A DNA stretch of 64,000 bases from Ralstonia sp. UNC404CL21Col (GTDB lineage Bacteria > Pseudomonadota > Gammaproteobacteria > Burkholderiales > Burkholderiaceae): NCBI RefSeq assembly GCF_000620465.1, contig NZ_JIBE01000003.1, positions 1,178,001 to 1,242,000 on the forward strand, read 5' to 3'. The notes under the pieces are model-generated. The model worked only from the letters and a program-made list of their open reading frames with translations, did no database searches and was not told where the DNA came from. Of the stretch, positions 4,611 to 46,555 are shown piece after piece. Numbering within the stretch: the stretch's first letter is position 1; each line of letters begins with the position of its first letter. The translations under genes were made by a program, and so were the position numbers.

Positions 4611-5501
4611 TCAGGGCGTGTCGTTGGTGGGCTTGCGAGGTGCAGATTTCGCGGGCGCTTTCTTGGCAGCGGCCTTCTTGGCGGAGGGCTTGGCCGTCTT
4701 GCCAGCAGGCGTCTTGGCGGCCGGTTTCTGCGCCGGCTTGGCGGCTGCGGGCTTGGACTTCGCCTGCGTACCTTCGATATCTTCCGGCGCGGCATCCAGA
4801 CCTTCCGCGCCCGGGGCGCCGCCAAACCCGGGGAAGCCGCCAGGGAAGCCCGGCATCAGGTTCTGGGGCATCGGCATGGCGGCCGCTGCGGAACTCGCGA
4901 TCTGGTTGAACTGCTGCTGCAGCATGTTCCACCACGGTGACGGGTCCAGCGCGGCCGCGGCGGCGCGGGCGGCTGCTTGCGCCTGCGCAGCGGCCTGGGC
5001 CTGGGCCTTGGCATTCTCGGCGCGGGCTTCAGCCTGATCGTCGTCCGTGTCTTCCTCCGCCTCGTCCTCGTCTTCGGGCGGCGGTTCGTCGTCAGCCGGC
5101 TTGGCTGTGGCGGCGGTGTGGGGCCACGCAGGTTTGGATGCCTCATCAGAAGACGATGAAGATGAAGACGAAGACGCGTCCGGCGTCAGCCCGTCGAACG
5201 CAGATTTCATGGCCTCCGGCGACAGTGCAGAGCCGAACGTCTGCAACGCCACCAGCGTGGCGCGCTGCACCTCCAGGCCCTGGATTGCCGTGCGCAGCAG
5301 GCTGGCGTTCAGTTGCAGCCAGCTTTCCACGGCGCGCAGGTCGTGGATGCGCTTGTCGATTTCCTCAAGATCCATCGGCGGCGCGGCAAAGCTCGCCATG
5401 TTGGGCATGCCGCCACCGGCCATGCCGGCAAAGCCGCCGCCCCACAGCTTGCGCAGGAAATCGAAACCGCCTTCGGCGAAATTGGGCATCTGGGTGAACA
5501 T
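4611..5501 (-). CDS. phaM: PHB granule-associated protein PhaM
   Basis: A 296-residue protein matching PhaM of Cupriavidus/Ralstonia, which activates PHB synthase PhaC and attaches granules to the nucleoid. The N-terminal 100 residues carry the family pattern ([20 protein letters not shown], then [17 protein letters not shown]). A run of nine serines near 132-140 and a strongly acidic stretch (about 150-175) follow, then an Ala/Gln-rich helix and a second block [15 protein letters not shown]. The C-terminal 50 residues are a Lys/Ala/Pro tail ([17 protein letters not shown]) of the histone-H1 type that binds DNA in PhaM. It is slightly longer than the C. necator protein as I remember it, mainly through low-complexity insertions. 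GTAGGAGACACC precedes the ATG. Confidence 0.9.
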
Positions 5502-35794: not shown

Positions 35795-36475
35795 ATGCCA
35801 CATCGCATCAAAGAGCTGTTCGAGAACAACCGCAAATGGGTCGAGCGGGTCAACGCTGAAGACCCGGCGTTCTTCTCGAATCTGGCCAACCAGCAGAACC
35901 CGGAATACCTGTGGATCGGCTGCTCGGATTCGCGCGTGCCGGCCAACCAGATCATCGGCTTGCCGCCGGGCGAGGTTTTCGTCCACCGCAACATCGCCAA
36001 CGTCGTCGTGCACTCCGACTTGAATTGCCTGTCGGTGCTGCAGTTTGCGGTGGAAGTGCTGAAGATCCGGCACATCACCGTGGTGGGCCACTACGGCTGT
36101 TCAGGCGTGAAGGCCGCGCTGACGAAGCAACGCTTCGGCCTGGCTGACAACTGGATTCGTCACGTGCGGGATGTGGCCGAGCAGCATGAAACGTATCTGG
36201 GCACGGTGGTCCGCGAGCAGGATCAGCACGACCGGCTGTGCGAGCTGAACGTGATCCATCAGGTCAACAACGTGTGCCTCACGACGATCGTGCAGGACGC
36301 GTGGGATCGCGGGCAGCCGCTGACGGTTCATGGCTGGATCTATGGCGTGAAGGACGGGATGCTGCGCAATCTGGGGATGGCGGCGAGTTCGAATGAGGAA
36401 CTGCATGCGCAGCTTGCTGATGCTTGGTTGAACTATGGGAAGGAAGGGAGTGTGCCTAGTCCGGTGGGGTTTTGA
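35795..36475 (+). CDS. can: Beta-class carbonic anhydrase
   Basis: A 226-residue zinc enzyme for CO2/bicarbonate interconversion. Zinc ligands and catalytic dyad are visible in GCSDSRVPANQI (Cys, Asp-Arg pair) and VGHYGCSGVKAAL (His, Cys). HRNIANVV and VHGWIYGVKDGML are family blocks. Bicarbonate is the co-substrate of the biotin-dependent carboxylases encoded downstream (LiuBD), which may explain the location; this is inference. It starts 23 bases after aceK. The last 60 bases drop in GC, leading into the compound inverted repeat. Confidence 0.95.
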   Translation: MPHRIKELFENNRKWVERVNAEDPAFFSNLANQQNPEYLWIGCSDSRVPANQIIGLPPGEVFVHRNIANVVVHSDLNCLSVLQFAVEVLKIRHITVVGHYGCSGVKAALTKQRFGLADNWIRHVRDVAEQHETYLGTVVREQDQHDRLCELNVIHQVNNVCLTTIVQDAWDRGQPLTVHGWIYGVKDGMLRNLGMAASSNEELHAQLADAWLNYGKEGSVPSPVGF

Positions 36476-36523
36476 GCTTTTGCTTTTTTGAGGGATGGAT
36501 TTGATGTTGGTGGTTCATCCCCC

Positions 36524-37053
36524 TTTCGTACCCTGCCGGGCACGACTCACTTTTCTTTGTCTTGCCAAAGAAAAGTAAGCAAAAGAAAGGCGCGCCCGAG
36601 ATGGCGAAAGATTCCTTGAATTTATGTCGCAGAGAGGGAGGACAGGCAAACCCCCTCCCCCAAAAAAGCCTCCCCTCTTTTTCCTCTCTGCAACAGAAAT
36701 TCAAGGCGCCATCTAGGGCAGTAACGTCAACGGCCAAACCGTCGACCACGAGTGCAGTAGAAATCGGCAGCACAACGCAAAGCGGAGCGAGCAACACAGC
36801 AACAAACAAGAGCCACCCAGGACAGCACACAGATTGTGTGGCCGTACCCTGCCCTAGATGGCGCCTTGAATTTGTGTAAGCGGGCGGAAAAAGAGAAGGA
36901 CCGCTGTTTGAGGCCCTTTAGGGCCGAGTTTCGGTCCTTCTCCGCCCGGTTACACAAATTCAAGGAAGGGGTCGCCATCTCGGGCGCGCCTTTCTTTGCT
37001 TACTTTCTTTGGCAAGACAAAGAAAGTGAGTCGGCCCCGGCAGGGGACGAAAC
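36524..37053. repeat. Compound inverted-repeat element, copy 1 (about 530 bp)
   Basis: Outer arms of about 83 bases are near-perfect inverted repeats (36524-36607 with 36972-37053). They begin TTTCGT, carry a CCTGCCGGG palindrome, a 10-bp hairpin (CTTTTCTTTG, loop TCTTGC) and GGCGCGCC, and end AGATGGCG. Inside lie two hairpin units, each bounded by AGATGGCG and CGCCATCT (36599-36714 and 36856-36980), each with an inner TTGAATTT/AAATTCAA pair and a variable stem-loop centre. A perfect 24-bp inverted pair (36697-36720 with 36850-36873) flanks a 141-bp core. No transposase and no credible coding frame. The second copy is at 45950-46507. It fills the gap between can and the thiolase gene. Confidence 0.92.
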
Positions 37054-37102
37054 GGAGATGGACCAACAAGGCCCACCCAACAAGCAAGAGACACACAACC
37101 CC

Positions 37103-37117
37103 TGCACCACAAGTGCA
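37103..37117. repeat. Conserved 15-base palindrome upstream of the thiolase gene
   Basis: TGCACCACAAGTGCA (TGCAC/GTGCA with a 5-base centre), 50 bases after the compound repeat. The identical sequence stands at 46556-46570, 49 bases after the second copy and just before liuD. Confidence 0.8.
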
Positions 37118-37140
37118 GAACATGTCCCAAGCACAGTTCC

Positions 37141-37145
37141 AGGAG
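37141..37145 (+). promoter_or_regulatory. Ribosome-binding site that fixes the thiolase start
   Basis: AGGAG nine bases before ATG 37155. The in-frame ATG at 37122 has no such site, so 37155 is taken as the start. Confidence 0.75.
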
Positions 37146-37154
37146 ATTGCAGCA

Positions 37155-38345
37155 ATGTCCGACCGCATCGTCATCGCCTCAGCAGCCCGTACCCCGATGG
37201 GCGCCTTCCAGGGCGAACTCGCCAGCCTCACTGCCCCGCAACTCGGCGCCGCTGCCATTCGCGCTGCGGTCGAACGTGCGGGCTTGAAACCGGAACAGAT
37301 CGAAGAAGTCATCATGGGCTGCGTGCTGCCTGCGGGCCAGGGGCAGGCACCGGCACGCCAGGCCGCACTGGGCGCGGGCCTGCCGCTATCGGTCGGCTGC
37401 ACCACGGTCAACAAGATGTGCGGTTCGGGCATGCGCGCGGCCATGAATGCGTATGACGCGCTGCTCGCGGGCTCGGTCGACGTGGTGGTTGCGGGCGGCA
37501 TGGAAAGCATGACCAATGCGCCGTACCTGATCCCGAAAGGCCGTGGCGGCTATCGCATCGGCCACGGCATGATCTACGACCACATGATGCTCGACGGCCT
37601 GGAAGACGCCTATGAAAAGGGCCGCGCCATGGGCACCTTCGGTGAGGACTGCGCCGAGAAGTACGGCTTCACGCGCGAAGCCCAGGACCACTTCGCGATG
37701 ACGTCCGTGCGCCGCGCGCAGGAAGCGACCGAATCCGGCGCGTTCCGCTGGGAGATCACGCCCGTCACCGTGTCGGGCAAAGCCGGCAAGGGTGACGATA
37801 GCGTCATCGACACCGATGAAGGCCCGCGCCGCATCAAGGTCGACAAGATCCCCTCGCTCAAGCCCGCGTTCAAGAAGGACGGCACGGTGACGGCCGCATC
37901 GTCTTCGTCGATCAACGATGGTGCGGCTGCGCTGGTGATGATGCGGGAGTCGACTGCCAAGCAGCTGGGCATCACGCCGCTGGCGGTGATGCTCGGCCAC
38001 ACCACGCACGCGCAAGAACCCGGCTGGTTCACCACGGCGCCGGTCACGGCCATCGACAAGCTCTTCAAGAAGCTCGATTGGAACTCGGGCAACGTCGACC
38101 TGTTCGAGATCAACGAGGCATTTGCCGTGGTGCCGATGGCCGCGATGCACGACCTGCGCATCCCGCACGAGAAGGTGAACGTGAACGGCGGCGCGTGCGC
38201 GCTGGGCCATCCGATCGGCGCCTCGGGCGCACGTGTGATCGCGACGCTGCTGGGCGCCCTGCGACACCGCGGCGGCAAGCGCGGCGTGGCCAGCCTGTGC
38301 ATTGGCGGCGGCGAGGCCACGGCTGTCGGCATCGAACTCTACTAA
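37155..38345 (+). CDS. Acetyl-CoA acetyltransferase (thiolase)
   Basis: A 396-residue degradative/biosynthetic thiolase that interconverts acetoacetyl-CoA and two acetyl-CoA. The acyl-accepting Cys89 lies in NKMCGSGM, the His in NVNGGACALGHPIGASGAR, and the second Cys in SLCIGGGEA. All catalytic residues are present and length is normal. In the leucine pathway it would process acetoacetate-derived acetoacetyl-CoA; it could also feed PHB synthesis. It opens the second block of liu-region genes after the compound repeat; the SDR follows after 9 bases. Confidence 0.95.
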   Translation: MSDRIVIASAARTPMGAFQGELASLTAPQLGAAAIRAAVERAGLKPEQIEEVIMGCVLPAGQGQAPARQAALGAGLPLSVGCTTVNKMCGSGMRAAMNAYDALLAGSVDVVVAGGMESMTNAPYLIPKGRGGYRIGHGMIYDHMMLDGLEDAYEKGRAMGTFGEDCAEKYGFTREAQDHFAMTSVRRAQEATESGAFRWEITPVTVSGKAGKGDDSVIDTDEGPRRIKVDKIPSLKPAFKKDGTVTAASSSSINDGAAALVMMRESTAKQLGITPLAVMLGHTTHAQEPGWFTTAPVTAIDKLFKKLDWNSGNVDLFEINEAFAVVPMAAMHDLRIPHEKVNVNGGACALGHPIGASGARVIATLLGALRHRGGKRGVASLCIGGGEATAVGIELY

Positions 38346-45899: not shown

Positions 45900-45949
45900 T
45901 GCTTTGTTGTGGGGGTGGGTCTTGGTTTTTTGTTGGTGGTCTGCTCCCC

Positions 45950-46507
45950 TTTCGTCCCCTGCCGGGGCCGACTCACTTTCTTTGTCTTGCCAAAGAAAGT
46001 AAGCAAAGAAAGGCGCGCCCGAGATGGCGAAGGATTCCTTGAATTTATGTCGCAGAGAGGGAGAGGAGGCAAACTCGCTTCGCTCAGACAGCCTCCTCTC
46101 TTTTTCCTCTCTGCAACAGAAATTCAAGGCGCCATCTAGGGCATCAACGGCCCCACCATCGAGACGCAAACGCAGTAGTGGGTACGCGGCAAGACGCGGA
46201 GCGAAGCAAGCAAAACCAGTTGGAGACGGCGAGCGAAGCAAAGCATCACACAGCAACAAGCAAGAGCCTGACAGCGCATGCACACCAGCGGTTTGGCCGT
46301 TGACGTTCCTGCCCTAGATGGCGCCTTGAATTTGTGTAAGCGGGCGGAAAAAAGAGGGAGGCTTGTCTGAGCGAAGCGAGTTTGCCTCCCTCTCCGCCCG
46401 GTTACACAAATTCAAGGAAGGGGTCGCCATCTCGGGCGCGCCTTTCTTTTGCCTACTTTTCTTTGGCAAGACAAAGAAAAGTAGGTCGTGCCCGGCAGGG
46501 TACGAAA
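45950..46507. repeat. Compound inverted-repeat element, copy 2 (about 560 bp)
   Basis: Same build as copy 1: outer arms 45950-46030 and 46424-46507, hairpin units 46022-46137 and 46316-46432 with AGATGGCG/CGCCATCT ends, and a core of 178 bp. Here the two variable hairpin centres are inverted copies of each other (46066-46095 and 46358-46388, one base different). A 19-base core segment (46289-46307) is the inverse of 36723-36741 in copy 1. A further CCCCGGCAGGGG follows at about 46531-46542 outside the arm. No transposase or credible coding frame. It occupies the gap between bioB and liuD. Confidence 0.92.
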
Positions 46508-46555
46508 CAGGGATGGACCAATACCGCCCGCCCCGGCAGGGGATGAAACAAGGAA

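Follow-up and report, generated by a model that had tools for sequence, protein, structure and literature searches.

A compound palindrome between can and a thiolase gene of Ralstonia is an inverted pair of a dispersed repeat unit

Most extragenic palindromes are short and confined to a single lineage. In Ralstonia sp. UNC404CL21Col, a palindrome of more than 500 bp lies between the end of can at position 36475 and a thiolase gene that probably starts near 37155. Positions refer to the window, the 64,000-nucleotide stretch analysed here (contig C3, 1178001-1242000; the genome comprises 5.09 Mb in 11 contigs). What kind of element is it, and what keeps or spreads it?

Anatomy, copies and placement of the unit

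We found nested inverted repeats covering 36507-37069. The compound reported initially at 36524-37053 is therefore real and slightly wider than described. Its outermost arms are 36507-36553/37023-37069 (47 nt, 85%), followed inward by 36552-36573/37004-37025 (22 nt, 100%) and 36582-36627/36952-36997 (46 nt, 89%). The central inverted pair, 36675-36721/36849-36895, includes 25 bp of perfect match (36697-36721/36849-36873). The region 36476-37150 folded at -365 kcal/mol, compared with -209 (sd 6.5) for 20 shuffles (z -24), and unit 2 by itself (36830-37075) gave z -7.9 against 200 shuffles. Two cores, 36600-36713 and 36857-36979, both carry GATGGCG/CGCCATC ends. The compound is thus not itself the unit, as had been supposed, but an inverted pair of one unit, one among many copies. 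The features are as follows.

36507..37069, no strand: whole compound, inverted tail-to-tail pair of units (inverted repeats and fold)
36507..36599, plus strand: head of unit 1, with T-rich start, H1 (CCCTGCCGGG), H2, connector and GCGCGCCCGA (repeats and anatomy)
36546..36579, plus strand: H2 of unit 1, CTCACTTTTCTTTG-TCTTGC-CAAAGAAAAGTAAG (inverted repeat; class-wide motif)
36580..36590, plus strand: connector CAAAAGAAAGG of unit 1 (the bases after it contact the H2 loop, weakly in Ralstonia)
36600..36713, plus strand: core hairpin of unit 1 (apical loop atypical, CCCCCTCCCCC where CTCGCTTCGCTC is usual)
36714..36856, no strand: tail 1, interior linker and tail 2, 143 bp (anatomy and linker comparison)
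36857..36979, minus strand: core hairpin of unit 2 (core pattern)
36980..37069, minus strand: head of unit 2 (repeats and anatomy)
36999..37030, minus strand: H2 of unit 2 (inverted repeat)

The unit measures about 230 bp: two hairpins and CAAAAGAAAGG make up its head, which is followed by a variable hairpin, the core, and then by a tail. The head runs from a T-rich start through GGTGGTNCATCCC, H1 (CCCCTGCCGGGG or similar) and H2, which reads CTTT(T)CTTTG-n6-CAAAG(A)AAAG plus flanks, to a connector with the end AAAGAAAGG. The core is GATGGCG-[6-7 nt]-CCTTGAATTT-variable stem and loop-AAATTCAAGG-CGCCATC, and the tail after it is TAGGGCAGG..GGCCAAACC. Since the 6-7 nt spacer is confined to the head side, units have polarity.

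BLAST of the focal element against its own genome gave at least 109 matching pieces (40 of 63 first-look candidates were scored). The head-core junction GGCGCGCCCGAGATGGCG had 49 exact occurrences and another 13 at one mismatch; allowing up to three raised the count to 137, against 28 for the reversed control. A pattern allowing one substitution per anchor detected at least 61 cores at 43 sites, a lower bound because cores were counted only in fetched stretches. Eighteen sites are pairs and 25 are single units, and all 18 pairs stand tail to tail with heads outward. The same orientation was seen in all 56 pairs from other genomes (82 singles besides), a set in which some loci overlap or repeat each other and one locus is the own genome. 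The element does not stand alone; in addition to these copies, a second complete compound of the family lies in the window itself at about 45931-46533, between co-directional genes, with cores at 46023-46136 and 46317-46431. Focal matches were present in all 16 genomes of the genus, and among the matches listed the same core was found in contigs named Ralstonia pickettii, R. soli, Ralstonia sp. and Burkholderiaceae bacterium. The focal element is thus not unique, and nothing points to a decayed known insertion sequence, a candidate rejected since the element holds no transposase and its copies keep one architecture.

The initial view that no credible coding frame is present was borne out: six frames from such elements, including the focal 124-aa frame, had no Pfam match over the cut-off (best E 0.029). 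The open frame of the thiolase gene reaches upstream into the element (TTG at 36996; span 36996-37155), a possible cause of wrong start annotation. Six contig ends of the assembly have a copy no more than about 100 bp away (ends of C3, C8, C9 and C11; starts of C10 and C11), and a run of N lies inside a copy on C10 near 5083-5092, where the assembly breaks within the element. The element accounts for small false frames and for contig breaks.

Placement relative to neighbouring genes, called by codon usage, was not even. Eighteen of the 43 sites lie between convergent genes, 23 between co-directional genes and none of these 41 in a divergent gap; two have no neighbour. Because 6 of the 31 window gaps of at least 60 bp are divergent, the absence is unlikely to be accidental (about 1.5e-4), the control being small. 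Among single units with a called tail-side neighbour, the gene end lies 44-144 bp from the core in 19 of 23. Terminator-like sites numbered 2 against 1.6 expected, and neither these nor promoter-like sites rose above chance, which lends no support to the proposed insulation of operon segments.

Base pairing kept in cores and heads

The core stems vary in sequence and stay paired. In 58 distinct core rows, 23 of 42 pairs were altered on both sides; double-change cells numbered 306 against a shuffled mean of 97, and the covariation score was 0.328 against 0.125, a value reached by none of 500 shuffles, although these statistics are not probabilities because the rows are related. The score fell to 0.097 or less once the partners were slid. 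Further pair types (38) were not above the shuffles (39.5; 429 of 500). RNAalifold gave 42 pairs, 21 of them with double changes. The description of constant ends with variable hairpin centres agrees with these conserved core ends and covarying stems.

Orthologous units told the same in another way. We compared 7601 stem pairs in 227 distinct pairs of units, excluding pairs with flanks more than 99.3% alike, apical-loop pairs and three columns, and setting aside 75 gapped cells. Of the stem pairs, 6957 were unchanged and 404 had changed on both sides, 397 of the latter still pairing; about 2 to 36 double changes are expected under independence. A further 240 had changed on one side (119 broken, 69 to G-T and 52 to Watson-Crick). 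Hence the impression from the own genome that one-sided changes are almost absent (7 core-stem cells, loop pairs aside) fails between species. Across 233 distinct units, with three lower-stem columns left out, there were 8382 Watson-Crick cells, 89 G-T (19 of them from a single column), 52 A-C and 98 others. G-T is thus rare and only modestly favoured, which suits pairing on both strands; strong selection on a one-strand RNA was rejected for the cores.

Outside the genus a different part is kept. Beyond Ralstonia, conservation lies in the head and not in the AGATGGCG hairpin. The pattern CTTTTCTTTGN6CAAAGAAAAGTNANCAAAAGAAAGG, with at most two mismatches, occurred in 24 of 369 genomes of the class (own included), in 23 of 272 genera, and the reversed motif in none of the 369. 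A sample of 398 genomes of the phylum yielded 19 with the pattern; every one belonged to the own class (137 genomes sampled), and the 261 from other classes had none. When a 55-base head of another genus was used as the query, 21 plasmid records matched (Burkholderia 7, Paraburkholderia 7, Pasteurella 3, Pseudoalteromonas 2, Aeromonas 1 and Ilyobacter, of the Fusobacteriota, 1), with no phage and no E. coli record among the matches. Bodies vary by lineage, and several still carry the Ralstonia loop word AACTCGCT(T/G)CGCTCA(A/G)ACAG. Of 150 family genomes, the Ralstonia core model, under strict filters, matched 16: 14 from its own genus, plus two others weakly. At 29 non-Ralstonia loci, eight head matches had a neighbour within 1.5 kb: five heads-outward, two direct (at one locus) and one a self-match. 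Some heads lie near gene ends: one in Pasteurella (L097) begins within about 10 bp of the dapF stop codon and one in Burkholderia cepacia (L277) about 100 bp past aceF, both head-first in the gene sense, and L328 and L329 (both of G881) were grouped with them.

H2 is gtnaCTTTTCTTTGcntgnCCAAAGAAAAGtaacCAAAAGAAAGG in 33 of 35 sources, with compensated changes plus mismatches among the four outer pairs. The last four bases of its loop are complementary to those just past the connector: in 44 distinct heads from 33 of the 35 sources, 164 of 176 cells were Watson-Crick and four G-U, the other two sources having a different loop length or register. Five thousand shuffles gave a mean of 100.8 and a maximum of 122. 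With one head per source, the count was 123 of 132 (shuffles: mean 79, maximum 95). Of eight registers, this one alone rose above its shuffles. All four G-U cells have U in the loop, and there is no A-C cell. A single head, that of G233, forms none of these pairs. The Ralstonia contact is weak, with two Watson-Crick pairs and one G-U, and it hardly varies: TCTTGC stands with GGCGCG in 191 of 218 head matches (counting overlapping loci). The genus therefore adds no covariation. A loop that pairs 3' of its hairpin across a single-stranded connector, as in the 33 sources and weakly in Ralstonia, would be expected of an H-type pseudoknot whose crossing strand is A-rich; the same bases could also form an alternative hairpin.

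Sites, interiors and cargo

We then compared the sites between species. The can gene is present in 16 of 16 genus genomes, and eleven loci are continuous through to thiolase, eight of them with two units. One genome (G002) lacks the left core and one (G001) the left head, and in a third (G012) the outer hairpin alone remains (CATCCC..CCCCCTGCCGGGGG..GGGAGATGG). In G004 both units are followed by adapter-like sequence at the end; the contigs of G003 and G013 stop inside the left head and those of G005 and G014 before it. Further deletion derivatives were seen at other sites, with the outermost palindrome alone kept. Within the genus the focal site is old, and its decay proceeds by deletion. Over 800 kb of G007, we counted 22 units at 14 sites. 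Nine of the 11 own sites with both flanks collinear there have units in G007; of the two without, one holds 133 bp with a short stretch resembling an outer end and the other 1.5 kb of different sequence. Ten more own sites matched by one flank only, and five G007 sites were unmatched. Synteny with G007 (C1, about 97-100 kb and 3083-3111 kb) breaks at two own pairs, C3:1277523 and 1305279, and the 27.5 kb between them lies elsewhere in G007. Such breaks would follow from ordinary recombination between repeats.

The interior of the focal pair has a history of its own. Its linker is 0.79-0.90 identical to six of eight own paralogs (0.58-0.60 to the other two) and 0.59-0.74 to six orthologs, whereas for the flanks the relation is the other way round, with 0.83-0.96 identity to six orthologs and 0.52-0.60 to paralogs. 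With the linker nearer paralogs while the flanks are nearer orthologs, the linker has been replaced. No clear separation of orthologs from paralogs was found for the left arm (0.87-1.0 vs 0.82-0.96) or core 1 (0.80-0.90 vs 0.73-0.89). In 22 pairs with both bodies, the two arms were on average 0.929 identical (range 0.77-0.98), left arms across species 0.868, and in 14 of the 22 the right arm was nearer its own left arm than any other species' left arm.

Some pairs enclose genes. The bodies of one inverted pair in G026, which belongs to a different genus of the family, lie 2.7 kb apart, and the sequence between them encodes a PAAR protein (PF05488), a Tae4 amidase (PF14113, E 4e-25) and an uncharacterised 198-aa frame; an autonomous copy was rejected here, as there is no recombinase. 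We compared this locus, which has an AraC-type regulator on one side and an aminotransferase on the other, across 31 genomes. A pair with 95-346 bp between bodies was present in 20, and genes were in the interior in four. Three of these have the PAAR-Tae4 cargo (G026, G102 and G895; the left body end of G102 was unrecognised). In the fourth, G901, the heads stand about 4 kb apart and enclose DUF1120-type genes (one scanned, PF06551) together with insertion-sequence-like sequence; the body ends were unrecognised there. G902 carries a mutator-type transposase (PF00872) inside one arm. G093 was partial, G892 and G894 remnants, and the contigs of G904 and G897 end there; in G138 the element was untraced by the patterns, and the locus was too diverged to define a target-site duplication. 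The cargo change may have been gain or loss, in either direction. In the own genome, widely spaced pairs enclose an outer membrane efflux protein (PF02321) and a cNMP-binding regulator (PF00027), the latter in 1.4 kb between the two units at 1103426/1104959; at the same place G007 has a short-interior pair, one head of which, judged by eye, carries an IS-like insertion. Across the handful of widely spaced pairs examined, no transposase lay between heads, except for insertion-sequence material in G901 and G902.

Interpretation and relation to known repeats

Taken together, we favour a non-autonomous recombining palindromic repeat as the best reading, and do so tentatively, at somewhat short of an even chance. 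Many copies, genus-wide presence, fixed pair orientation, covarying stems, the interior swapped while flanks stay, cargo in some species, arm likeness within pairs, deletion derivatives and the head with its loop contact in 23 genera all support it. Two tail-to-tail units would enclose a replaceable interior, exchanged by homologous recombination or gap repair between copies with shared arms. The conserved head would be a recognition fold, as single-stranded DNA or RNA, for a putative factor that may have spread units in the past. SbcD (TIGR00619) was over the cut-off in none of the 16 genus genomes, which had weak partial matches in 10 (best E 5e-14); in 14 control genomes 13 matched, 8 over the cut-off. 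SbcCD cleavage as the source of breaks was dropped for this reason, and the lack of a clear SbcD suggests why long palindromes are tolerated and would partly explain their survival. The initial proposal of a non-autonomous mobile or recombining element is supported as regards multiple copies and recombination; transposition would be a conjecture, with neither a transposase in the element nor a target-site duplication identified. Against the recombining reading, orthologs do not clearly exceed paralogs in the similarity of outer arms and cores, and the sites, mostly old and common within the genus, do not point to recent movement. Moreover, no mobilising enzyme was found. We compared 23 of the 24 head-positive class genomes (own omitted) with 23 hand-picked negatives: neither Y1 (18 of 23 vs 16 of 23) nor RVT_1 (12 of 23 vs 11 of 23, no retron-like linkage) was enriched, and RAYT and reverse transcriptase were rejected as the engine. 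A giant REP/BIME moved by a RAYT (Y1) transposase is accordingly very improbable, even though one Y1 gene exists in the own genome and inverted hairpin pairs lie close to gene ends: its contig, C6, has no focal-element match among the 109 listed, G450 has 18 head copies and no Y1, and units are several times REP length, with no GTAG/GTGG-headed short hairpin unit seen in their anatomy.

Structured RNA at gene 3' ends, entered by transcripts from either neighbour, is a real possibility, if a doubtful one. Like enlarged REP/BIME, its folds would block exonucleases, fix transcript ends or separate convergent transcription. The avoidance of divergent gaps and the position at gene 3' ends fit this role equally well; the pseudoknot-type contact, with G-U cells having U in the loop and no A-C, favours it, and the few core wobbles suit a need for pairing on both strands. 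Against it stand the modest excess of core G-T over A-C, terminator-like and promoter-like sites at chance level, and the patchy occurrence by the strict pattern in the class. The recombining element and the 3'-end RNA role may both be true. Functionless palindromes left by past recombination, tolerated without SbcCD and kept alike by gene conversion and template switching, would account for the pattern in arms and linker, the decay by deletion and the SbcD result; a 40-base head with a covarying loop contact across 23 sampled genera and the avoidance of divergent gaps point instead to constraint or active spread, and make this account improbable.

A further extension of the recombining reading, which we consider rather unlikely, is that the pseudoknot-headed hairpin unit, paired tail to tail at gene ends and tolerated in hosts lacking the palindrome nuclease SbcCD, is a widespread and undescribed docking cassette, whose palindromic arms would shuttle interiors and cargo (type VI effector module, DUF1120 genes, cNMP-binding regulator) between sites and strains. 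Head sequence and loop contact are kept across 23 sampled genera, the head also occurs on a fusobacterial plasmid, and the rest changes yet stays base-paired. The family offers a testable system for the survival of long palindromes, for arm likeness and for pairs as possible ports for gene exchange. Minimal mobile elements of Neisseria likewise have fixed flanks and an interior exchangeable by homologous recombination; their flanks are ordinary genes, whereas here they are dispersed palindromic units. In the comparison with MITEs, the inverted ends are clear. Integron attC sites came into consideration solely for the variable hairpin tops.

As far as the cited text describes them, REPs measure about 20-37 nt, bear GTAG/GTGG-type heads and have a RAYT gene alongside (PMC2817692). 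They and BIMEs share with the present element the dispersed extragenic palindromes, inverted pairs and complementary changes that keep palindromes (PMC2817692), but units here are about 230 bp, with another head and without RAYT association. The Betaproteobacterial repeat element (BRE), also a multicopy intergenic repeat of betaproteobacteria, is about 90 bp, forms direct tandem arrays, is suspected of mobility, has one locus transcribed as small RNA and is tabulated there without Ralstonia (PMC3110155). Its size and tandem arrangement differ; as its sequence is given in a figure only, it is set apart by description. The stem-loop families of Cozzuto et al. are structured intergenic repeats, and Ppu-1 of P. 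putida (617 bp, 39 copies) is of similar size; the text in question has no occurrence of Ralstonia, and these families too are set apart by description (PMC2267715). STAXI RNA (Rfam RF01728) is likewise a pseudoknot repeated in bacterial genomes, in tandem repeats, but according to the text available its hosts are Enterobacteriales (PMC2864571), and the window has no Rfam match. Seven loci searched at E up to 1 gave six Rfam matches, all in the Variovorax locus L094 and all under the gathering score; its compound (L094:1740-2000) has another long palindrome mid-element, which resembles microRNA models below threshold. The open PMC full text, as far as it was accessible, yielded no description of the element. 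What is new here is thus an element absent from Rfam that belongs to a known kind, the extragenic palindromic repeats.
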